The notes under the pieces: generated by a model
What the model was told of the DNA's origin: nothing
Databases searched by the model: none
Seen by the model: only the letters and a program-made list of their open reading frames with translations
Position numbers and translations under genes: made by a program
Part shown: positions 6,387-28,334 of the stretch, piece by piece
How the letters are laid out: each line of letters starts with the position of its first letter
How positions within the stretch are numbered: position 1 is the stretch's first letter
IMG/VR virus record: IMGVR_UViG_3300007276_000199
Span: 1 to 29,750 of that record
DNA from: a virus
Reading direction: 5' to 3' (one strand)
Length of the DNA stretch: 29,750 nt

Positions 6387-7955
6387 ATGGCGACAAGAAA
6401 ATTAAATACTAAAGGCCGTAGAGAAGATAAATATAAAGGAAATTATCCTTCTGTATTTAAAAAGGTTGAACAATCTGATTTTAAGAAACAACGGTTTGTT
6501 ACAAATAAACTTTTTACTTTTTTATCTGGAAGCTCTACTGGTAGTGCGTTGCCATTAGAAGCAAGATACACTGATCGGAATTTTCTTCCTGCTTTAGGAT
6601 CTGAGTTAACATTTAATGATGCTGCAAATATTGATGGTTCATTACAAAGTGTTACATATTTTTCTATAGATCATTTGTATTATCGCAAAAAAGATCAACC
6701 CAGTAAAACTTTTGGTCCTACTGATTTAACACGTACGAAAAAACATTTATATGAATCTGCGTCAGTATTCGTAATACCACAACTTAAAATTGGTGAAGGT
6801 ATCAAGCCGGCATCATTTCAATTCACTGGGTCAGGATTAAATTTATCAGCTGATCGATATAGCAATATAATTGATGATGGGTTTGATTCGTCTTCGATTG
6901 TTTCAGATGTAAAATTTTATGAAGGATTCAATGAATATTTTGATACTTCAAGAATTAAATATGAATTAGCTCAAGGTGTTACGTATCTTGCAGGAATTCC
7001 TACTACAGATGGTGATACTGCAGCTATCGGCCGCCGTGCACATTTTGAAGGCGCTGGACATATTCAGAGTGCATTACCTGGATATTATGATAGACAACAT
7101 GATTATGCAATATCATTTTTTGTGTCAGGTTCTAATACTGGCAGTAACAATCAAATTGTTATTGCAAAACAATCTGGTTCGGTTGATAGATACCCATTCA
7201 GTATACAATTAAGTGGTAGTAATGAAATAGAGTTTAAAGTATCTTCTGATTCTTCTCTTAATACTACGTTGTCAGCAACTAGCAGTGTAGACGAATGGAC
7301 TCACATAGTTTGTCAAAAATCAGGAAGTGAATTACAAATTTGGATGAATGCTGGATTACATGTTTCGTCATCTCATGATTTCTTGTTATATGGCGTTAAT
7401 ACATTATATACAGCATCAGGACGAATCAATAATGATTATCCGGTAAACATTGGTGGTCTTAGCCCCAATACCTCAAATCTTACAGGTGATCTAGATGAAA
7501 TAAGAATCTTTAATAAGTCACTAACTGAGTCGGAGATAAGTGCGTTATCGGGCCGTACGGAGAACGGGACATTTTTGCAAACAAATCATGTAGGAAATGT
7601 ATTTAGTAAACATGGAACAATTGTTATTTCTAGTCCACATTATAAATACGATGATTTAACTGCGGCTCCATTTACATCAAGTTATCGAAGTACGGTAACA
7701 ACAACAGAATATTCTACATTGGTAAGAATAAGTAAAGATGATTTTAATTTAACACTCAATCCATCAACTCTGCAAGATAATGGCGTTGATTATGACACAT
7801 ATGTTTCAAGCAGCGATTTTGCACCATACATAACAACAATTGGATTGTATAATGAATCAGGACAACTTCTAGTTACAGGCAAATTAGCTTCGCCAGTACG
7901 TAAACGGGATGATATTGATATGAATATTTTATTGAGGTTTGATACTGACGTATGA
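6387..7955 (+). CDS. Phage structural protein with LamG-like (concanavalin-type) domain
   Basis: A 522-residue protein with a basic N-terminus (MATRKLNTKGRREDKYKGNY). Residues about 212-390 form a LamG/pentraxin-like beta-sandwich: the AHFEGAGHIQ entry strand, DEWTHIVCQKSGSELQIWMN, and GDLDEIRIFNKSLTESEIS are the characteristic strand pattern of this fold, which in phages often binds glycans or host surface material. The C-terminus (STLVRISKDDFNL, YITTIGLYNESGQLLVTGKL, ILLRFDTDV) repeats the terminal module of the preceding gene. It probably displays the lectin-like domain on the tail or baseplate. The stop overlaps the next start by 4 bp (ATGA), implying translational coupling. There is no convincing Shine-Dalgarno sequence. 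Confidence 0.75.
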   Translation: MATRKLNTKGRREDKYKGNYPSVFKKVEQSDFKKQRFVTNKLFTFLSGSSTGSALPLEARYTDRNFLPALGSELTFNDAANIDGSLQSVTYFSIDHLYYRKKDQPSKTFGPTDLTRTKKHLYESASVFVIPQLKIGEGIKPASFQFTGSGLNLSADRYSNIIDDGFDSSSIVSDVKFYEGFNEYFDTSRIKYELAQGVTYLAGIPTTDGDTAAIGRRAHFEGAGHIQSALPGYYDRQHDYAISFFVSGSNTGSNNQIVIAKQSGSVDRYPFSIQLSGSNEIEFKVSSDSSLNTTLSATSSVDEWTHIVCQKSGSELQIWMNAGLHVSSSHDFLLYGVNTLYTASGRINNDYPVNIGGLSPNTSNLTGDLDEIRIFNKSLTESEISALSGRTENGTFLQTNHVGNVFSKHGTIVISSPHYKYDDLTAAPFTSSYRSTVTTTEYSTLVRISKDDFNLTLNPSTLQDNGVDYDTYVSSSDFAPYITTIGLYNESGQLLVTGKLASPVRKRDDIDMNILLRFDTDV

Positions 7956-8500
7956 TACGACTTAAAACAATATTAGAACAATCCTCGCGCGAAGAACAAG
8001 TTGATTCTTTGTTAGACAAAATTAAAAACAAACAGTTTGAAAGAATTGGCGCTGGCGATAATGGCATTGTATATGCAATTCAAGGAACTGATTATGTGTT
8101 TAAAATTACGAGAGAGCGTGATGAATTCGAAGTTGCATCAGTAATCGTAGGCCGAGAATCTGAATTTACATGTTTCGTTCCGGTAGTGTATGTAAATGAT
8201 TCTGAAAAAATGTATATCATGCGCAATGCAGATCCATTGCCTTTGCAATATAAAACTGCTATTGATAATTTTTATGCCCGATATACTAAATTTGCATTAG
8301 ATATGCAAGGCGAAGTTAGCATATTTGATTATTTAGATGCAGAAGGCTCTCGAGAAACAGAAAAACCGTTAGTTGATTTCTTGAGACGATTACAACAACA
8401 AGTAGAACGAACCGGTATTGCAGAATTTGATTTAGATTTAGACTTTAAATCAGATAATGTAATGATGTATCAATCAAAAATGGTATTAATTGATTGGTAA
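7952..8500 (+). CDS. Truncated protein-kinase-like protein with capsid-targeting-like N-terminus
   Basis: A 182-residue protein. Kinase-fold landmarks are visible in the right order: a glycine loop GAGDNG (33-38, GxGxxG), a VAIK-type lysine (K51 in VFKIT), a catalytic loop D164-F-K166-S-D-N169 that matches D-x-K-x-x-N, and LID at 179-181 in the place of DFG. The protein then stops at W182, so the activation segment and C-terminal helices of a normal kinase are absent, and the HRD histidine is replaced by Asp. The first residues (MIRLKTILEQ) end in I-L-E, like gp21-cleaved propeptides. It overlaps the fibre gene upstream by 4 bp. It may be a minimal kinase, a small-molecule phosphotransferase or a pseudokinase; the fold call is inferred from motifs only. 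Confidence 0.6.
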   Translation: MIRLKTILEQSSREEQVDSLLDKIKNKQFERIGAGDNGIVYAIQGTDYVFKITRERDEFEVASVIVGRESEFTCFVPVVYVNDSEKMYIMRNADPLPLQYKTAIDNFYARYTKFALDMQGEVSIFDYLDAEGSRETEKPLVDFLRRLQQQVERTGIAEFDLDLDFKSDNVMMYQSKMVLIDW

Positions 8501-8509: not shown

Positions 8510-8528
8510 TATATAAATGGACATTAAT

Positions 8529-9722
8529 ATGAAATTAGTAAATTTGTTAAACGAAGCAAGATTTCGTTGGAAATATAAAGAATTGCCTGAATTTCGACAA
8601 GAACCTGAATCTGTTACTGGGTATCGAATTGTACGTAGAGAACGAGGAGAAGATGCTAATGTTACACTCGATGATATGATGAAAATACTACGTAATGAAG
8701 AATTTGTAAGTAATTTTAAAAATAAAAGTTATGTATTTTGGGTTGAATTAAAAACTACAAGAGCAAGAAAAAAGGTTGCATTCGTTCATATTTTTAATGT
8801 AAATAATCTTCCTGATTATATATTACCAAATATACAGACCCCATATACGACCATTAATGGAGCTAAAATATTTATTAAAGATCCAAAGAAAGATGTTCAA
8901 CAAGGTGGGGAAGGTGATGAAGTTGGTGCAACTAGCGCAACTGATGTTCAAGGACCACAAGGAGAAACTGGAGAAACTGGTGTTCAAGGACCACAAAGTG
9001 CAACTAGTACTAATGTAAATATACCATCAGGAACACCTTTATTAAAACGAGGATCTAGAGGAGAGTCTGTAAAACAATTACAAACATTATTAGGATTGAC
9101 TGGAGATAGTGTTGATGGCAAATTTGGATCTGAAACAACTGCGTGGCTTACAGTTTGGCAAGCAGAACATGGATTCACCGGTAATGATATTGATGGAATT
9201 TATGGACCAAAGACTGCAGCCGCAATGAAAAAAGATTCATCCCCTGTTAAAGATACAGCTAAAGCAATTAAATTAACTACGAATGTAAAAGATGCGTTTG
9301 TTTCTAAGACTACAACAAGTAAACCAGCTGGGACTACATTGAGCTCTGGTTTATTTAAACAGTTAGAAACAAAATTTCCTAAAGTATTTAAAGGCAGTTA
9401 TACTTTTAAATTGGTTGGTGGGAAAGCTGGTGATACAGTTAAAAGATTAAGTATCGGATCTCCAACTCAAGCAGAAACATATGAAGCGGCTATGAAAAAA
9501 AATATTACAGGGGCCGGTATACAGACAAATGAACCTTTATTACTAGATATTTTTGAAAAAATTTCTAAACAACAGTTAACTACATTATTTAACAGTTATC
9601 AAAAAATTAATGGTACTAAGTTAGCTCATGATTTAAAGAACAACGCTTTTGATGAAAGTGAAATGTCAAAGTTAAAAGATATTTTTCTGAAAAAAGGATT
9701 AAAGTTATCTAACTATCAATAG
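8529..9722 (+). CDS. Peptidoglycan-binding (PG_binding_1) internal-type protein
   Basis: 397 residues from the chosen ATG at 8529. An upstream in-frame ATG at 8517 would add MDIN but lies too close to the TATTTATA motif. The N-terminus MKLVNLLNEARFRW contains L-N-E followed by Ala, like a T4 capsid-targeting propeptide. Residues about 15-118 are of unknown fold. About 130-155 is a short Gly-x-y stretch (GPQGETGETGVQGPQ) encoded by tandem repeats. Residues about 172-233 form a peptidoglycan-binding domain of the PG_binding_1 type, with two half-repeats (VDGKFGSETTAWL and IDGIYGPKTAAAM). The C-terminal 160 residues are unrecognised, and no lytic catalytic motif was seen. It might help the ejecta cross or anchor to the cell wall; the alternative is a virion lysin whose catalytic domain I do not recognise. 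Confidence 0.7.
   Translation: MKLVNLLNEARFRWKYKELPEFRQEPESVTGYRIVRRERGEDANVTLDDMMKILRNEEFVSNFKNKSYVFWVELKTTRARKKVAFVHIFNVNNLPDYILPNIQTPYTTINGAKIFIKDPKKDVQQGGEGDEVGATSATDVQGPQGETGETGVQGPQSATSTNVNIPSGTPLLKRGSRGESVKQLQTLLGLTGDSVDGKFGSETTAWLTVWQAEHGFTGNDIDGIYGPKTAAAMKKDSSPVKDTAKAIKLTTNVKDAFVSKTTTSKPAGTTLSSGLFKQLETKFPKVFKGSYTFKLVGGKAGDTVKRLSIGSPTQAETYEAAMKKNITGAGIQTNEPLLLDIFEKISKQQLTTLFNSYQKINGTKLAHDLKNNAFDESEMSKLKDIFLKKGLKLSNYQ
8945..8996 (+). repeat. Short tandem repeats encoding Gly-x-y linker
   Basis: TGTTCAAGGACCACAA occurs at 8945-8960 and again at 8981-8996. Between them GGAGAAACT is tandemly duplicated (8961-8969 and 8970-8978). Together they encode a five-triplet collagen-like linker before the peptidoglycan-binding domain. 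Confidence 0.85.
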
Positions 9723-17387: not shown

Positions 17388-17395
17388 TATTTATA
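17388..17395 (+). promoter_or_regulatory. TATTTATA motif, putative late promoter element
   Basis: TATTTATA in TTAATATTTATATAAA. The distance to the ATG at 17412 is 16 nt, like other copies; to the ATG at 17400 it is only 4 nt, which argues for 17412 as the true start. Confidence 0.5.
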
Positions 17396-17411
17396 TAAAA
17401 TGGGCATTCGA

Positions 17412-19988
17412 ATGAAATCAATACTACAAGAATTCAAACAACATCTCGCAGAGCAAACAAGTAATATTACTGTTTTATTTCCAGGCGGATTTAAACCTAT
17501 TACTGGAGCACATTTAGCACTTGCTAATCGTTATGCAGAAGATCCACAAGTACAACAAGTAGTGATGCTTATCGGCCCAAAAGATAGAGATGGGTTTACA
17601 AGAACACAATCAATCCAAGCATTCAATTTGATGAATTCAAACCCAAAGATCCGCATACAACCAACAGAATTTAATTCTCCTATCATGGCTGCATACGAAT
17701 ACTTGTTTGCATTGCCAGAAGATACTGCGGGTCAATATGCAATGGCTGCATCTGCAAAAGGAGATGATTATGTAAGAACTAAATCATTTGTGCCTAATGT
17801 AGACAAATACAAAACAGTAGGCGATAAGTCGGGTCGAATGATGCCAGCTGGTGTCGACGCAATTGAATTGACTGCAAACACAGATCCAATACAATATCCG
17901 ACAGGAGAGCCTGTATCTGCTACATCAACAAGAGCAGCAATTGCTGCAGGCGATTATCGTAGATTTAAAGAATCTTATCCAGGCATAACAGATGAAATTC
18001 TTAAAAATGTTTGGGAAATATTCACAGGTAAAATGATTGAAACCGTTTTTTCTAAAGAATGGTGGTCTACACAATTAGCAGAAGATGTTGAAAAATTATT
18101 TACTGAACTGAAAACTGGAAAGCGTTTACGTGTATTTGATTTTGATGATACATTAGCAAAAATGAATGCTACAATTTACGTTAAACACCGAGATGGATCT
18201 AACACAGAATTAAACCCAGCACAGTTTGCGGTTTATGAGCCAATGCCTGGCGATGATTTTGATTTTTCAGAATTTGATAGAATTATTAAATCTGCAAATC
18301 CAATACAAAAAAATGTAGATGCATTAAAAAGAGCAATGCAAGATGCTGGGGCTAAAACAACTATTTTAACGGCTCGTAGAGTAGCTTATCCAGTTAAAAG
18401 ATATCTTGAGCGCGAACATGGACTTAAAAACATATACGTTGTTGCACTGGGTTCATCTGACCCAATGGATAAAGCTCGGTGGATTGAAAAACAAATTCAA
18501 AAAGGATATGACGATATTGAGTTTATTGACGATTCTCCAAAAAATGTAAAGGCAGTCGATTCATTACAACAACAATATCCAGATGTTGCATTAACAGCAC
18601 ATTTAGTAGAAGGCTATATGGATCCTAAAACTGCTGAGAAACACAAAAAGAAAATTGAAAAGCTTCGCAAGTTTTTAGATAAAAATACCGGTAAAGAGTT
18701 TGTATATGATTTTGATACATACGACAAAACTACATATGGTGTTCCATTAACAGAAGGCACATTACTTACAGAAGGTGGAGCTGGGGGGCACATGGCTCAC
18801 CCATATGATGATCACGGATTAACCTTTAACGAAATGAAAGAATTAATTGCACGCGCGTTAGAAGGCGAATTAGATGTAGAAGAGGCAGTAACAGAAAAGA
18901 CAGATGGCCAGAACCTTCAAGTAACGTGGAAAAACGGACAAGTAGGATTTGCTCGTAATAAAGGTACAATTAAAAAGCCATTAACGACACAAGAACTAAT
19001 TAATAAATTTGAAGGTCGCGGACCTATATCAGATGCATTTCGTGAATCAGGACAAGATTTACAAGCAGCTTTCGGAAAAATAGATAGTTCTAAATTAGAC
19101 GAAATATTTAAAAATGGTCGAGTGTTTGCAAACATGGAAATTATATATCCTGCAACCAAGAACATTATTAATTACGATAAAGCACATATACAGTTTCACA
19201 ATTTAGTTGAATATGACGAAACTGCAAATAAAGTTCAGACCGATATGACCGGCGGAGCATTGATTCAGAAAATAATTGAAGATGCAAATGCGCACATGCA
19301 AAATACATTTTCATTCATACCTCCACAAAAAATTAAATTAGGTCGTATTGCAGATTTTGAAGATCAACAAGCAGCATTATTTGCAGAAGTAGATCAACTT
19401 AAAACGCAATTTGGACTTAAAGAGACTGATTTAATTTCTGAATATCATCGTGCTTGGTGGAGAGACGTAATTACTACAAAAGCTCAAGAATTGGGATATG
19501 ATATATCAGATGATTTGAGAGACACATTAGTAGATAGATGGGCGTTTAATGATAAGTCGACATCAATAACAGCTATTAAAAAACAAATTGAAAATCCTGA
19601 GTATTCACAATGGGTAACAGATTTTGATAAAAAAGATTTTAAATCATATCAAAAACAAAACATGGAACCATTTGAATCAATCTTCTTGAGATTAGGAGCT
19701 CTTGTATTATCAAATGTATCGCAGATATTAGCTGCAGATCCTAGTAAATCTACACAGGAAATTAAAAGAGATGTTGCTACATTAATGAAGCAAGTACAAC
19801 AAAGCAAAGACCCAGAAATTCTTAAAAAAGTTGAGTATCAACTAAAAAGAATTGAAAAGCTCGGAGGCTTTGATAAAATTGTTCCAATTGAAGGAATTGT
19901 ATTTACATTCAAAGGCAATACATATAAATTAACAGGCGCATTTGCGCCAGTCAATCAACTAATAGGCATATTAAAGTACGGACGATAA
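17412..19988 (+). CDS. Three-domain nucleotidyltransferase / HAD phosphatase / ligase-like protein, internal-type N-terminus
   Basis: 858 residues from ATG 17412; ATG 17400 would add MGIR but sits 4 nt from a TATTTATA motif. Residues 1-15 (MKSILQEFKQHLAEQ) end in L-A-E, like a gp21-cleaved capsid-targeting peptide. Residues about 18-215 form a HIGH-type nucleotidyltransferase: PGGFKPITGAHLAL (TxxH at 31-34) and SATSTR (169-174), the ISTxxR-like motif of NMN/cytidylyl transferases. Residues about 238-400 form a HAD phosphatase: D243-F-D-D-T, LTAR, and IDDSPKN around D373/D374. Residues about 460-858 carry covalent nucleotidyltransferase (RNA/DNA ligase-like) motifs: K496-T-D-G, E576 in MEIIYP, E827-G in IEGIVF, and K839 in YKLTGAF. 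This combination suggests nucleic-acid end repair or nucleotide salvage. Functions are inferred from motifs; the ligase-like call is the weakest, because its motifs are widely spaced. Confidence 0.75.
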   Translation: MKSILQEFKQHLAEQTSNITVLFPGGFKPITGAHLALANRYAEDPQVQQVVMLIGPKDRDGFTRTQSIQAFNLMNSNPKIRIQPTEFNSPIMAAYEYLFALPEDTAGQYAMAASAKGDDYVRTKSFVPNVDKYKTVGDKSGRMMPAGVDAIELTANTDPIQYPTGEPVSATSTRAAIAAGDYRRFKESYPGITDEILKNVWEIFTGKMIETVFSKEWWSTQLAEDVEKLFTELKTGKRLRVFDFDDTLAKMNATIYVKHRDGSNTELNPAQFAVYEPMPGDDFDFSEFDRIIKSANPIQKNVDALKRAMQDAGAKTTILTARRVAYPVKRYLEREHGLKNIYVVALGSSDPMDKARWIEKQIQKGYDDIEFIDDSPKNVKAVDSLQQQYPDVALTAHLVEGYMDPKTAEKHKKKIEKLRKFLDKNTGKEFVYDFDTYDKTTYGVPLTEGTLLTEGGAGGHMAHPYDDHGLTFNEMKELIARALEGELDVEEAVTEKTDGQNLQVTWKNGQVGFARNKGTIKKPLTTQELINKFEGRGPISDAFRESGQDLQAAFGKIDSSKLDEIFKNGRVFANMEIIYPATKNIINYDKAHIQFHNLVEYDETANKVQTDMTGGALIQKIIEDANAHMQNTFSFIPPQKIKLGRIADFEDQQAALFAEVDQLKTQFGLKETDLISEYHRAWWRDVITTKAQELGYDISDDLRDTLVDRWAFNDKSTSITAIKKQIENPEYSQWVTDFDKKDFKSYQKQNMEPFESIFLRLGALVLSNVSQILAADPSKSTQEIKRDVATLMKQVQQSKDPEILKKVEYQLKRIEKLGGFDKIVPIEGIVFTFKGNTYKLTGAFAPVNQLIGILKYGR

Positions 19989-22489: not shown

Positions 22490-24073
22490 ATGGCAGCACA
22501 AAAAGACATAAAACAAATAATCGCGGAACAGTACCAAAAATGTGCTTCAGATCCCGTCTTTTTTATGCGTAATTATTGTTATATTCAACATCCTGTTAAA
22601 GGAAAAATAAAATTTAATCTTTATCGATTCCAGGAACAATCCTTAACGGATTTACGCGATAGTAGATATAACATTATATTGAAGTCCCGACAGTTAGGTA
22701 TATCAACACTATCTGCAGGATATGCTCTCTGGGCAATGTTGTTCAATGAAGATTTCAACGTACTTGTTATTGCAACAACACAAGAAGTAGCAAAGAACCT
22801 TGTTACAAAAGTGCAGGTAATGCATGATAATTTACCTTCATGGTTAAAAGGTAATATGACAGCAAACAACAAGTTGTCATTAAAATTTAAAAATGGTTCA
22901 CAAATAAAAGCAATTTCTTCAGCATCTACCGGAGCACGTTCAGAAGCATTATCATTATTAATTGTAGATGAAGCTGCATTTATTAGAAACATTGAAGAAA
23001 TTTGGGTAGCATCACAAGCAACTCTATCTACCGGAGGCGGCGCAATAGTACTTTCAACACCTAATGGTATTGGTAATTGGTTTCATCAAACATGGGCAGG
23101 TGCTGAATCTGGGCATAATGGATTCAACACAATTAGACTTAGATGGGATGTACACCCAGAACGAAATCAAGATTGGCGTGATGAACAAACACAACTTTTA
23201 GGAGAAAAAGGCGCAGCACAAGAATGTGATTGTGACTTTATTAGTTCTGGTCACACTGTAATTGATGGTTCAATATTGCAAGAATTTGAATTAAAATGTA
23301 CGGAGCCTATAGAACGAAGAGGATATGATAATGGATATTGGATATGGAAATATCCAGATTATTCTAGAGACTATGTAGTAATAGCTGACGTCGCGCGTGG
23401 TGATGGAGCTGACTTTTCTACATTTCATGTTATTGATGTTGAAACAATAGAACAGGTCGCAGAATATAAAGGAAAACTTCCTCCTAAAGATTTTGGTAAT
23501 ATGTTGATAAGTGTTGCATCAGAATGGAACAATGCATTACTTGCAATTGAAAATGCAAACATTGGATGGGCTGCAGTTCAACCTGCAATAGATAGAGGAT
23601 ATCAAAATCTATTTTATACATATAAAGATGATGGATATGTTGATGTAGATATTCAACTCAGAAAAGGATATGATACAAAAGACAAATCAAAAATGGTTCC
23701 TGGTGTGTCGACTACATCTAGAACAAGACCATTAATGATATCTGCACTTGAAATGTATATGAGAGAAGGTTCTCCTATTATTCATTCAAAACGACTTATA
23801 CAAGAACTATTTGTATTTATTTGGCAAAACGGCAAAGCACAAGCACAACGAGGTTATAACGATGACTTGGTTATGGCATTTGCAATTGGACTTTGGTTAC
23901 GAGATACATCATTAAAATTAAGACAACAAGGCATTGAATTAAATAAACGTGCCTTAACACAGTTACAAAAAACAGATTCAGTTATTTATACCGGAAACGA
24001 TCGACCAAAAGATATTGGGTGGGATTGGGACAATGGTTATGGCAATGAAGATTTGACCTGGCTTATTAAGTAA
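22490..24073 (+). CDS. terL: Terminase large subunit (T4 gp17-like ATPase/nuclease)
   Basis: A 527-residue protein. This DNA-packaging motor docks on the portal, pumps DNA with ATP and cuts the concatemer. ATPase domain: Q48 adenine-binding motif (YRFQEQ), a Walker A-like K65-S-R-Q-L-G-I-S-T73, Walker B LLIVD160-E161, and the coupling motif LSTPNG. Nuclease domain: D300 in IADVARGDGADFS, E354 in LAIEN, and D458/D459 in YNDDLVMAF, the RNase H-like acidic triad. The usual Walker A lysine next to Ser/Thr is Ile71, and an upstream Lys65 may serve instead, a variant known in this terminase group. Length is slightly below T4's 610. The portal follows directly, without the sheath and tube genes that separate them in T4. 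Confidence 0.95.
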   Translation: MAAQKDIKQIIAEQYQKCASDPVFFMRNYCYIQHPVKGKIKFNLYRFQEQSLTDLRDSRYNIILKSRQLGISTLSAGYALWAMLFNEDFNVLVIATTQEVAKNLVTKVQVMHDNLPSWLKGNMTANNKLSLKFKNGSQIKAISSASTGARSEALSLLIVDEAAFIRNIEEIWVASQATLSTGGGAIVLSTPNGIGNWFHQTWAGAESGHNGFNTIRLRWDVHPERNQDWRDEQTQLLGEKGAAQECDCDFISSGHTVIDGSILQEFELKCTEPIERRGYDNGYWIWKYPDYSRDYVVIADVARGDGADFSTFHVIDVETIEQVAEYKGKLPPKDFGNMLISVASEWNNALLAIENANIGWAAVQPAIDRGYQNLFYTYKDDGYVDVDIQLRKGYDTKDKSKMVPGVSTTSRTRPLMISALEMYMREGSPIIHSKRLIQELFVFIWQNGKAQAQRGYNDDLVMAFAIGLWLRDTSLKLRQQGIELNKRALTQLQKTDSVIYTGNDRPKDIGWDWDNGYGNEDLTWLIK

Positions 24074-24106: not shown

Positions 24107-25954
24107 ATGGCGTCACTTAGAAAACGATTACAAAACTTATTTTCTACAAATGTAGTTGTCAGAGCTTATGGCAAAGATAAACTTCGTGTAGTTGATACTA
24201 ACCGCCTTCAATCGACAGGTAACTTAACGCAAAGTAAAGTAGCCGACAGATATACAAGACTTCACGGTTCAAACAAGCATCGTGTTGGAGGTATGGGTGG
24301 GTATGACTCGAATTATTATATGCATCAAAATCGTATGCAGTTATATACTGATTACGAAATGATGGATAAAGATCCTATTATATCTTCAGCTTTAGACATA
24401 TATGCTGATGAATCAACATTAGCAGATCAATTTGGAGATGTTCTTACTGTAAAATCTAATGATAGTAGAATTCAAAAAATTCTTTACAATTTATTTTATG
24501 ATGTAATGAACATTGAATTCAATCTTTGGCCCTGGATTCGTAACATGGCCAAATATGGCGATTTCTTTTTGAAATTAGATATTGCTGATGAAATTGGTAT
24601 TTTAAATGTACGTCCGTTTTCTTCATATGAAATTGAGAGGTGGGAAGAATTTAATGATAATACAGGTGAGTATGATATTAAATTTAGACACATTGTGTCA
24701 GAACAACTTACATATGATGTATTTGAGATAGCACACTTCCGTAATATTTCGGATTCAAATTTCCTTCCATACGGTCGCAGTATGCTAGAAGGCGCACGTC
24801 ATGAATTTCAAAAATTAATGCTTTTAGAAGATGCAATGCTTATTCACAGAATCATGCGTGCACCACAAAAGCGTATCTTTAAAATTGATATTGGTAATAT
24901 TCCGCCTAATGAAGTTGATGGGTATATGGAACAAGTTATCAATAAAATGAAAAAGATTCCACACGTTGATCCCAAGACTGGTAATTATAACATGAGATTC
25001 AACATCAACAACATGTTAGAAGATTATTACTTGCCTGTTCGAGGAGGAAATAGTTCAACAGAGATCAATACATTAGAGGGTATGGAATTTACCGGTATTG
25101 ATGACATTGAATATGTAAAACACAAAATGATGGCTGCGTTAAAAGTACCAAAGCCATTTTTAGGATATGATGAAGGTGTAGAAGGTAAATCTACATTAGC
25201 ATCAATGGATATTCGTTTTGCAAGAACAATTGAGCGTCTTCAAAAGATATTTGTTTCTGAATTAACTAAAATTGCAATTATACATTTATATGCACAAGGA
25301 TATGAAGATAAAGATTTAGTTAATTTTGAACTTGAACTTACAGCTCCATCTATTATATATGATCAGCAAAAAGTTGCACTAATGAATGAAAAAATTCAAT
25401 TAGCGCAAACAATGAAAGATTCAAAATTAGTTTCTCATAGATACATTTATGAATACATATTCAATATGTCGGAAGAAGAATGGTTGCAAGAACGCAATGA
25501 TATTGTTGAAGATATTAAATTAGGTTTCCGACAAAATCAAATCGAACAAGAAGGAAATGATCCTACTGTAACTGGTAAGTCTTATGGTACACCGCATGAT
25601 TTAGCAACAGCTCATATGAGTAGCAATGATGTAGTAGAACCAGATAAAGGAGGCAGACCACCAGAAGGAATTAAGTCTGGACAACATAAGAATGCATTTG
25701 GTTGGGATCCGCTAGGTACAAAACAAATCAAACAAGATTTAGATCCTGAAAATAGAAAATCAGCATTTATTGGTGACCCAAGGTTCTACAGAAGAAATCC
25801 GAAGCATACGAATTTCACAACAGAACATTCAGATATCTTAAAAAAAATTAAACCTAAATCACCAAAAATCATTTCAGAAACATTAAATAATGAACAAAAT
25901 AACACAGAGATGGGTTCAATGTTAGATGAAAACAATATTTTAAATGATGATTAA
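24107..25954 (+). CDS. Portal vertex protein (T4 gp20-like)
   Basis: A 615-residue protein. The ring of portal subunits at one capsid vertex starts head assembly, passes DNA and joins the tail. Features typical of the gp20 family: MDKDPIISSALDIYADEST near residue 85, FLPYGRSMLEGARHEFQKLM around 222, LIHRIMRAPQKRIFKIDIG (stem/wing region), GNYNMRFNINNMLEDYYLPV around 297, and a helical crown and C-terminal tail rich in Asn, Lys and Asp. Length is somewhat above T4 gp20 (524), with the excess in the last 120 residues, which look disordered. It sits 33 nt after the terminase, followed by two core-like genes and the protease, matching T4 order (20, 67, 68, 21). There is no Shine-Dalgarno sequence; a TATTTATT motif lies upstream. 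Confidence 0.93.
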   Translation: MASLRKRLQNLFSTNVVVRAYGKDKLRVVDTNRLQSTGNLTQSKVADRYTRLHGSNKHRVGGMGGYDSNYYMHQNRMQLYTDYEMMDKDPIISSALDIYADESTLADQFGDVLTVKSNDSRIQKILYNLFYDVMNIEFNLWPWIRNMAKYGDFFLKLDIADEIGILNVRPFSSYEIERWEEFNDNTGEYDIKFRHIVSEQLTYDVFEIAHFRNISDSNFLPYGRSMLEGARHEFQKLMLLEDAMLIHRIMRAPQKRIFKIDIGNIPPNEVDGYMEQVINKMKKIPHVDPKTGNYNMRFNINNMLEDYYLPVRGGNSSTEINTLEGMEFTGIDDIEYVKHKMMAALKVPKPFLGYDEGVEGKSTLASMDIRFARTIERLQKIFVSELTKIAIIHLYAQGYEDKDLVNFELELTAPSIIYDQQKVALMNEKIQLAQTMKDSKLVSHRYIYEYIFNMSEEEWLQERNDIVEDIKLGFRQNQIEQEGNDPTVTGKSYGTPHDLATAHMSSNDVVEPDKGGRPPEGIKSGQHKNAFGWDPLGTKQIKQDLDPENRKSAFIGDPRFYRRNPKHTNFTTEHSDILKKIKPKSPKIISETLNNEQNNTEMGSMLDENNILNDD

Positions 25955-27710: not shown

Positions 27711-28334
27711 ATGAATAATCTTTTATTAGAATATAAACCATTTCAACCAAAGGTATTGTCAGAGCAAAGTGCTCGAGAATATGGCGTACCCGGCGGGTTT
27801 ATTGTTCAAGGAGTACTTCAACGCGCGGGAGCAAAAAACCAAAATGGCAGAATATATCCCAAGAATATCTTAGAAAGAGAATGTAAACGATATATGACAG
27901 AGTTTATTGGACAGAACAGAGCATTAGGCGAATTAGATCATCCAGAGTCATCAGTCGTGAACTTGAACAACGTATCACATAACATACTTAAGATTTGGTG
28001 GAGTGGAGATGATTTGATGGGAACAGTCCAAGTACTTGATACGCCATCAGGAAAGATCCTTAAAACGTTGTTTAAAGAAGGAATTACATTAGGAATTTCA
28101 AGCAGAGGTTTAGGTTCTGTGAAAGAATTATATAAAGAAGGAGCAGTAGAAGTACAAGATGACTTTGAACTTATTGCATGGGACTTTGTTTCAAATCCAT
28201 CAACTCATGGTGCATTTATGCGTCCTTCCAAAATGAATGAGTCTGCAGGAGCTGTAGAAAAAAGATTTAAGTACGCAACAACAAACCAAATAATTACATC
28301 AATTCTTTGCGATAACGGAAAATGTAGGATATAA
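27711..28334 (+). CDS. Prohead core protease (T4 gp21-like, serine peptidase family S77)
   Basis: 207 residues, nearly the length of T4 gp21 (212). The protease sits inside the prohead, cleaves scaffold and internal proteins after (L/I)-x-E, and finally itself. Visible family motifs: KNQNGRIYPKNILERE, H77 in ALGELDHPES (catalytic His), S130/S131 in LGISSRG (catalytic Ser), and FELIAWDFVSNPSTHGAF containing the conserved Asp. The N-terminus has two possible self-cleavage sites, L-L-E (5-7) and L-S-E (16-18). GGAG six nt upstream of the ATG supports the start, one base after the core-like gene. It is the key partner for the capsid-targeting-like peptides on other proteins in this window. Confidence 0.94.
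   Translation: MNNLLLEYKPFQPKVLSEQSAREYGVPGGFIVQGVLQRAGAKNQNGRIYPKNILERECKRYMTEFIGQNRALGELDHPESSVVNLNNVSHNILKIWWSGDDLMGTVQVLDTPSGKILKTLFKEGITLGISSRGLGSVKELYKEGAVEVQDDFELIAWDFVSNPSTHGAFMRPSKMNESAGAVEKRFKYATTNQIITSILCDNGKCRI

Follow-up and report, generated by a model that had tools for sequence, protein, structure and literature searches.

The T4 RNA ligase Rnl1 also promotes tail-fibre attachment, and T4-type Pnkp phosphatases also act on DNA. In T4 the protease gp21 cleaves after L/I-X-E, and the internal head proteins carry propeptides of 10-19 aa (PMC9026906). Among cyanophages, homologues of a nucleotidyltransferase (NT), termed 'NMNAT' or cytidylyltransferase, are listed in the virion proteomes of S-SCSM1 and S-CBWM1 (PMC9602691) and S-CREM2 (PMC10665884), identified in these three cases by their published names, and in that of S-SZBM1 (PMC9146016); for the CsCl preparations the proteome authors note possible contamination (PMC9602691, PMC10665884). 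The locus compared with these systems here is a gene in a viral record of 29,750 bases, called the window, which is the whole stretch of DNA that was analyzed. Its product combines NT, phosphatase and ligase-fold domains, and it is slightly favored that this chain is a late head-packaged precursor, cut by a gp21-type protease into separate healing and sealing enzymes that are delivered with the DNA. The features of the gene are listed below, where a slash at the end of an L/I-X-E motif marks the predicted cut.

17388..17399, + strand: AT-rich TATTTATATAAA, immediately upstream of the start; in many relatives it reads YLYK
17412..19988, + strand: whole gene of 858 aa with leader, HIGH-type NT, HAD, LK segment and ligase-fold domain (ORF list, relatives)
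17412..17453, + strand: N-terminal leader MKSILQEFKQHLAE, ending in LAE/Q
17466..18026, + strand: HIGH-superfamily NT, residues 19-205, with T31..H34, K57 and S169-R174 (alignment, profile, fold)
18048..18083, + strand: FSKEWWSTQLAE/D, a helix of the form [FL][ST]KxWW at the NT/HAD junction, with LxE at its end
18096..18596, + strand: HAD phosphatase of PNKP type, residues 229-395, with D243, D245, T320, K354, D373 and D374; an optional module
18603..18611, + strand: LVE/G site after the HAD, residues 398-400
18621..18743, + strand: LK segment, residues 404-444, H..KI.KL...FVYDF....KT..G, conserved yet poorly ordered in the model
18747..18773, + strand: tandem sites LTE/G (446-448) and LTE/GG (452-454) before the ligase domain, pLDDT < 50
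18774..19985, + strand: ligase-fold covalent nucleotidyltransferase domain, residues 455-858, with GHMxHP, K496-D498-G499, R515, E576, F595/H596, E827-G828 and K839
19251..19859, + strand: mostly helical insertion of ~200 residues (about 614-816) between motifs IIIa and IV (model)

An earlier note on this DNA had proposed that NT, HAD and ligase motifs sit in a single chain, and this is the case: one frame of 858 aa holds GGFKPITGAH (residues 25-34), SATSTR (169-174), DFDDT (243-247), IDDSPKN (from 372), KTDG (496-499), IEGIVF (826-831) and YKLTGAF (838-844). A second in-frame ATG lies at 17400, and the relatives L002 and L003 begin at the Met of 17412. Alignment of up to 62 relatives shows little or no variation at the motif residues, dN/dS between the window gene and L002 is 0.14, and in the structural model KTDG, the Glu of motif III, IIIa, EG and YK fall at or beside consecutive beta strands, so that these motifs are not a product of chance. 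Searches of the whole chain by sequence against Pfam, PADLOC and PDB gave nothing useful, and no P-loop or kinase domain was found in the window protein. Pfam matches to DUF2608 and DUF3854, which covered the HAD and the following stretch, were below threshold and were dismissed. The AT-rich sequence upstream of the start is possibly a late-promoter-like element; matches to the late-promoter pattern showed no excess over chance within the window.

The C-terminal domain was modeled with AlphaFold2 using 62 relatives, which yielded a mean pLDDT of 88.7 and a pTM of 0.85. When the model was compared with the PDB by Foldseek, the top matches were all ATP-dependent ligases, headed by T4 Rnl1, an archaeal RNA ligase, fungal Trl1 and T4 Rnl2. 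These matches have E-values of about 1e-3, probabilities of 0.7-0.99 and low TM-scores, probably because the helical insertion of ~200 residues defeats global superposition. The motif order of the ligase superfamily, KTDG/R/E/FH/EG/K, is present, with motif I KxDG, motif Ia R, motif III E and motif IV EGxV in the sequence, and the aligned relatives vary little or not at all at K496, D498, G499, R515, E576, H596, E827, G828 and K839. Motif V reads Y-K839-L-T841, which is K-x-T and not K-x-K, and the second of the two basic residues is missing. Sequence profiles run against the PDB found no ligase for the C-terminal domain, the Pfam and PHROG ligase models did not match the window protein, and PF09414 gave only a sub-threshold match, in the relative L110. 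The earlier note had made its ligase assignment depend on the C-terminal fold; the AlphaFold2 and Foldseek results give an RNA-ligase-type nucleotidyltransferase fold and leave that assignment standing. Judged by its model, the C-terminal part has a ligase fold, is divergent and does not fall within the curated Rnl families.

DNA ligases appear lower down the same fold list, which would suit an enzyme that acts on phage or host DNA ends rather than on RNA, for instance by sealing nicks in the incoming genome; delivery with the genome and the activity of Pnkp-type phosphatases on DNA would fit as well, but nearly all top fold matches are RNA ligases and this reading is very unlikely. That the protein is a catalytically altered structural or assembly factor, comparable to T4 Rnl1 in tail-fibre attachment, is scarcely probable. 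The gene does lie among structural genes, the second motif-V Lys is missing and a weak match to phrog_562 (RNA ligase and tail fibre attachment; E 0.015) was obtained for L016, but the residues of motifs I, Ia, III and IV and the first residues of motif V are invariant or nearly so, and the catalytic motifs of the NT and HAD domains are intact.

By the features tested, namely the (H/T)xGH-type and SxTxxR motifs and the fold, the window NT belongs to the HIGH superfamily. An hmmsearch of the PDB with the NT family profile matched PPAT and nicotin(amid)ate nucleotide adenylyltransferases (best match PPAT, 1.7e-6), and the same folds (NaMNAT/PPAT) came up as matches of the full-length model, which supports the earlier proposal of a HIGH nucleotidyltransferase. 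Sequence does not decide between NMN, phosphopantetheine and a CTP-type substrate. A NAD+ role of the NT is a serious alternative and is compatible with the rest of the packaged-precursor view. Taken further, the chain could be a virion-borne NAD+ or cofactor enzyme, whose NT, as an NMN adenylyltransferase, would replenish the NAD+ that NADase defences have consumed; the ligase-fold domain would then have a small molecule or a protein as its target, or a secondary role. The profile matches to PPAT and Na/NMN adenylyltransferases, the name NMNAT chosen by the cyanophage proteome authors and the occurrence of phage-encoded NAD+ salvage (PMC9503650) speak for this possibility. It is nevertheless doubtful: no phosphoribosyltransferase was recognized in the window, PPAT and cytidylyltransferases are among the closest NT families, so that several substrates are compatible, the domain that always accompanies the NT has a ligase fold with RNA ligases as its nearest folds, and a PNKP-type HAD has been added in one lineage.

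A match to phrog_415 'polynucleotide kinase' (E 9e-12) covers the HAD part alone, and its DxDxT, T, K and DD motifs are intact in the alignment, so that the phosphatase proposed earlier can be specified as PNKP type; a sequence search of the HAD against the PDB gave no useful match. The domain is not a constant part of the family. A first scan found 27 related loci and the ligase profile then more than 570 in viral contigs; in genome collections only four contigs were found, each of them in a metagenome-assembled bin and probably a phage contaminant, and a plasmid search for relatives found none. Since the HAD occurs between NT and ligase only in a minority of relatives (the window clade, L010, L025 and L075), the conserved unit is NT plus ligase. 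The earlier view of a three-domain unit thus holds for the window chain but not for the family, and the NT in place of a kinase is more than a plain substitution, as the HAD was added to a constant NT and ligase pair in some lineages. Synonymous divergence between the window and L002 is 0.10 in the HAD, compared with 0.87 in the NT and 0.65 in the ligase; this value far below both flanks looks as if the HAD module had recently been exchanged between phages.

Other relatives carry other modules. An 'X' domain (phrog_14518/23027) is the middle module in many of them, a ParB-like module was read by eye in L007 and is N-terminal in L030, zinc-ribbon-like modules were read by eye in L012 and L018, HNH-like modules are present in L023 and L056, and between the NT and the ligase of L103 (1450-5058) lie a Zn_protease (PF05618) and a phrog_36119 module of 226 residues. 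In L023 (5977-8905) and L056 (4066-7272) the HNH-like ORF sits at the LTE/GG codons before the ligase, with Cys in place of Glu on the downstream side. These insertions, for which Rfam gave no intron match, are possibly homing elements using the conserved LTE/GG site. Free-standing X, ParB or zinc-ribbon modules were not found in the fetched loci; stand-alone X proteins exist in Melnitz and immuto phages, the Melnitz copy having no clear LxE leader. The huge phage LR756500 encodes the ligase as its own gene, adjoining a gene with the NT.

The segments between the domains carry a motif of the gp21 prohead-protease type. Seven times in the window protein an [LI]xE precedes a small or polar residue (at 12, 101, 222, 398, 446, 452 and 621), and five of these sites lie at the leader end or at domain junctions; pLDDT falls below 50 at the leader end, at the NT/HAD junction and in the stretch before the ligase. 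Among 51 non-redundant relatives, 48 have [LI]xE/GG before the ligase in a segment predicted to be disordered. All 51 keep L or I at P3 there and 48 keep E at P1, with P2 and P5-P10 variable. LxE motifs are denser in linkers than in domains (3.26 vs 0.81 per 100 aa), and linker sites number 145 against 65 +/- 7 after shuffling, or 112 against 58 +/- 6.5 without the last site, although these shuffles overstate independence because the counted sequences are related. The [FL][ST]KxWW...LxE helix recurs at module junctions of about 40 related loci and is almost exclusive to the NT and ligase family; in distant clades it shifts to the position right before the ligase, being immediately upstream of it in L091, L092, L095 and L098.

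An LxE at every junction suggests that the chain is cut into separate enzymes, so that the single three-domain enzyme envisaged in the earlier note is correct as to the joined domains but probably not as to the final product. An unpackaged enzyme that is synthesized in the infected cell and heals and seals as one intact three-domain chain, with LxE as part of a flexible linker of no further role, would agree with the resemblance of the domain set to Pnkp/Rnl systems (PMC7824862) and with the missing leader of most relatives. Such constancy of P3 and P1 within a disordered, variable segment is unexpected for a plain linker, however, the leader of a stand-alone ligase ends in the same motif (MKFLKSYEEFLNENLILE/GG), and the HAD is absent in most relatives, which together make an intact enzyme unlikely.

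The precursor reading is consistent with the surrounding genes. The NT-HAD-ligase gene lies among structural genes, and the window contains the T4-type head genes listed below.

22490..24073, + strand: large terminase, gp17-like (gene-order comparison with Mel-JY01)
24107..25954, + strand: T4-type portal (PF07230 in 11/13 related records)
27711..28334, + strand: candidate for a gp21-type prohead protease, itself carrying an N-terminal VLSE/Q (by comparison; Mel-JY01 annotation: 'putative prohead protease')

In related phages, LVKE/(S or A) or LISE/A is retained near the N-terminus of the major capsid protein, and LTE/S, LNE/Q or LSE/Q near that of gp21; from these retained sites the L/I-X-E rule of gp21 probably holds in the phage group of the window. 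The window protein has such motifs in exposed segments, and its genome encodes the protease candidate. Two further window proteins on the + strand have similar N-termini: a small kinase-like protein (7952-8500; weak PHROG kinase matches) begins MIRLKTILE/Q, which resembles a capsid-targeting leader, and a peptidoglycan-binding, endolysin-like protein (8517-9722) has LLNE/A. Kinase-like proteins are present in cyanophage virions (PMC10665884).

By analogy with the T4 CTS/gp21 rule (PMC9026906), the leader would be a propeptide of the capsid-targeting type. It has the form of a T4 internal-head-protein propeptide (HLAE/Q), and such forms also occur in distant clades, where unrelated leader sequences likewise end in [LI]xE/(Q or A) just before the NT. 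Packaging through the LAEQ leader, as suggested in the earlier note, is supported by this ending and by the detection of homologous cyanophage NTs in virions, but it does not extend to most relatives: in the 74 scored, 11 had the leader without the LK segment, 53 the LK segment without the leader, 6 both and 4 neither. If the close relatives without a leader are packaged, another targeting element is needed, and the LK segment is a possible internal one, mostly where the leader is missing. That it substitutes for the leader is a guess, because the complementary distribution follows one clade.

In the proposed precursor pathway, the chain would be expressed together with the head genes, and its leader, perhaps along with the LK segment, would direct it into the prohead. 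A gp21-type protease would cut after LAE14, LAE224, LVE400, LTE448 and LTE454, and the freed NT, HAD and ligase would be delivered into the cell alongside the DNA. Once inside, the PNKP-type HAD could take off 3'-phosphates and the ligase domain could join RNA ends through a K496-AMP intermediate, most likely those of host-cleaved tRNA or other RNA, with the NT supplying an adenylylated cofactor of NAD+ type or acting on ends. As the HAD is missing from most relatives, sealing there would need another healing enzyme.

A similar pair is found in cyanophages, in which the ligase half is the Pfam family DUF6267 (PF19782; 1e-98 or better). NT and ligase stay together, either fused, with one or the other in front, or as adjacent genes: S-PM2 has DUF6267 fused ahead of the NT, the reverse order, and the two genes lie side by side in Syn9, ACG-2014j, DSL-LC02, P-TIM40 and S-SZBM1. 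The DUF6267 model does not match the window protein and an hhalign comparison of the window domain with DUF6267 is weak; the two are linked by a fold search that connects the window ligase domain to the S-PM2 protein (E 1.3e-5), by the HxxH/KxDG/EG motifs and their order, and by the constant NT partner. DUF6267 appears to have the RNA-ligase fold in L150, L151, L152 and L154-L160, often beside a cytidylyltransferase gene, and 471 phage records match the S-PM2 member. In HTVC008M (L152:3563-4225) a zeta-toxin-like P-loop kinase lies between the DUF6267 and NT genes, which is in line with end healing. The S-SZBM1 NT begins MRFRQFIIE/A.

In general terms, the data describe what may be a widespread head-packaged polyprotein system of T4-like phages, with an NT and RNA-ligase core, a slot for interchangeable modules and prohead-protease joints cut in the capsid, the ligase half and DUF6267 being members of a new family of RNA ligases whose helical insertion is large; for this wider proposal the chances are even. 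If true, RNA repair would be carried in the virions of abundant T4-like phages ahead of phage gene expression, and tRNA-cutting, perhaps also NAD-depleting, defences would be blunted from the first minute. DUF6267 would gain a function, the 'NMNAT' repeatedly found in cyanophage virions a partner, and prohead proteolysis could serve to split a multi-enzyme cargo.

Compared with the gp21-processed proteins IPI-III and Alt of T4 (PMC9026906), the window protein shares a short propeptide ending in L/I-X-E, T4-type head genes and the logic of a delivered enzyme, but its chain consists of several enzyme domains with sites between them, most relatives have no propeptide, and packaging is proposed here by analogy. 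The polyvalent proteins of Iyer et al. 2017 (PMC5512222) are likewise multidomain phage proteins of late blocks that join disparate enzymes, including ParB-like ones, and were proposed to be co-injected with DNA; the window family also shows a chain of disparate enzymes, a late-gene context and variable modules. The window chain is apparently separated at prohead-protease sites and not by an internal metallopeptidase, and the NT and RNA-ligase-fold core is not among the polyvalent cores described in the passages compared (PMC5512222). In comparison with phage RNA ligases (PMC7824862), the window ligase domain shares the fold and motifs I, Ia, III, IIIa and IV with T4 Rnl1 and Rnl2, archaeal Rnl3-type ligases and fungal Trl1, and differs in its insertion of about 200 residues, its K-x-T motif V, its N-terminal GHMxHP and its lack of a Pfam ligase match. 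Bacterial and phage healing and sealing enzymes of Pnkp type also combine phosphatase and ligase modules, but the kinase is absent from the window chain and a HIGH-type NT occupies the first position. DUF6267 and the 'cytitidyltransferase' (T4-GC190) of cyanophages share with the window the NT and ligase-fold pair, HxxH/KxDG and a virion-associated NT; their sequences are almost unrelated, they are separate genes or in reversed order, and DUF6267 had no predicted function before.
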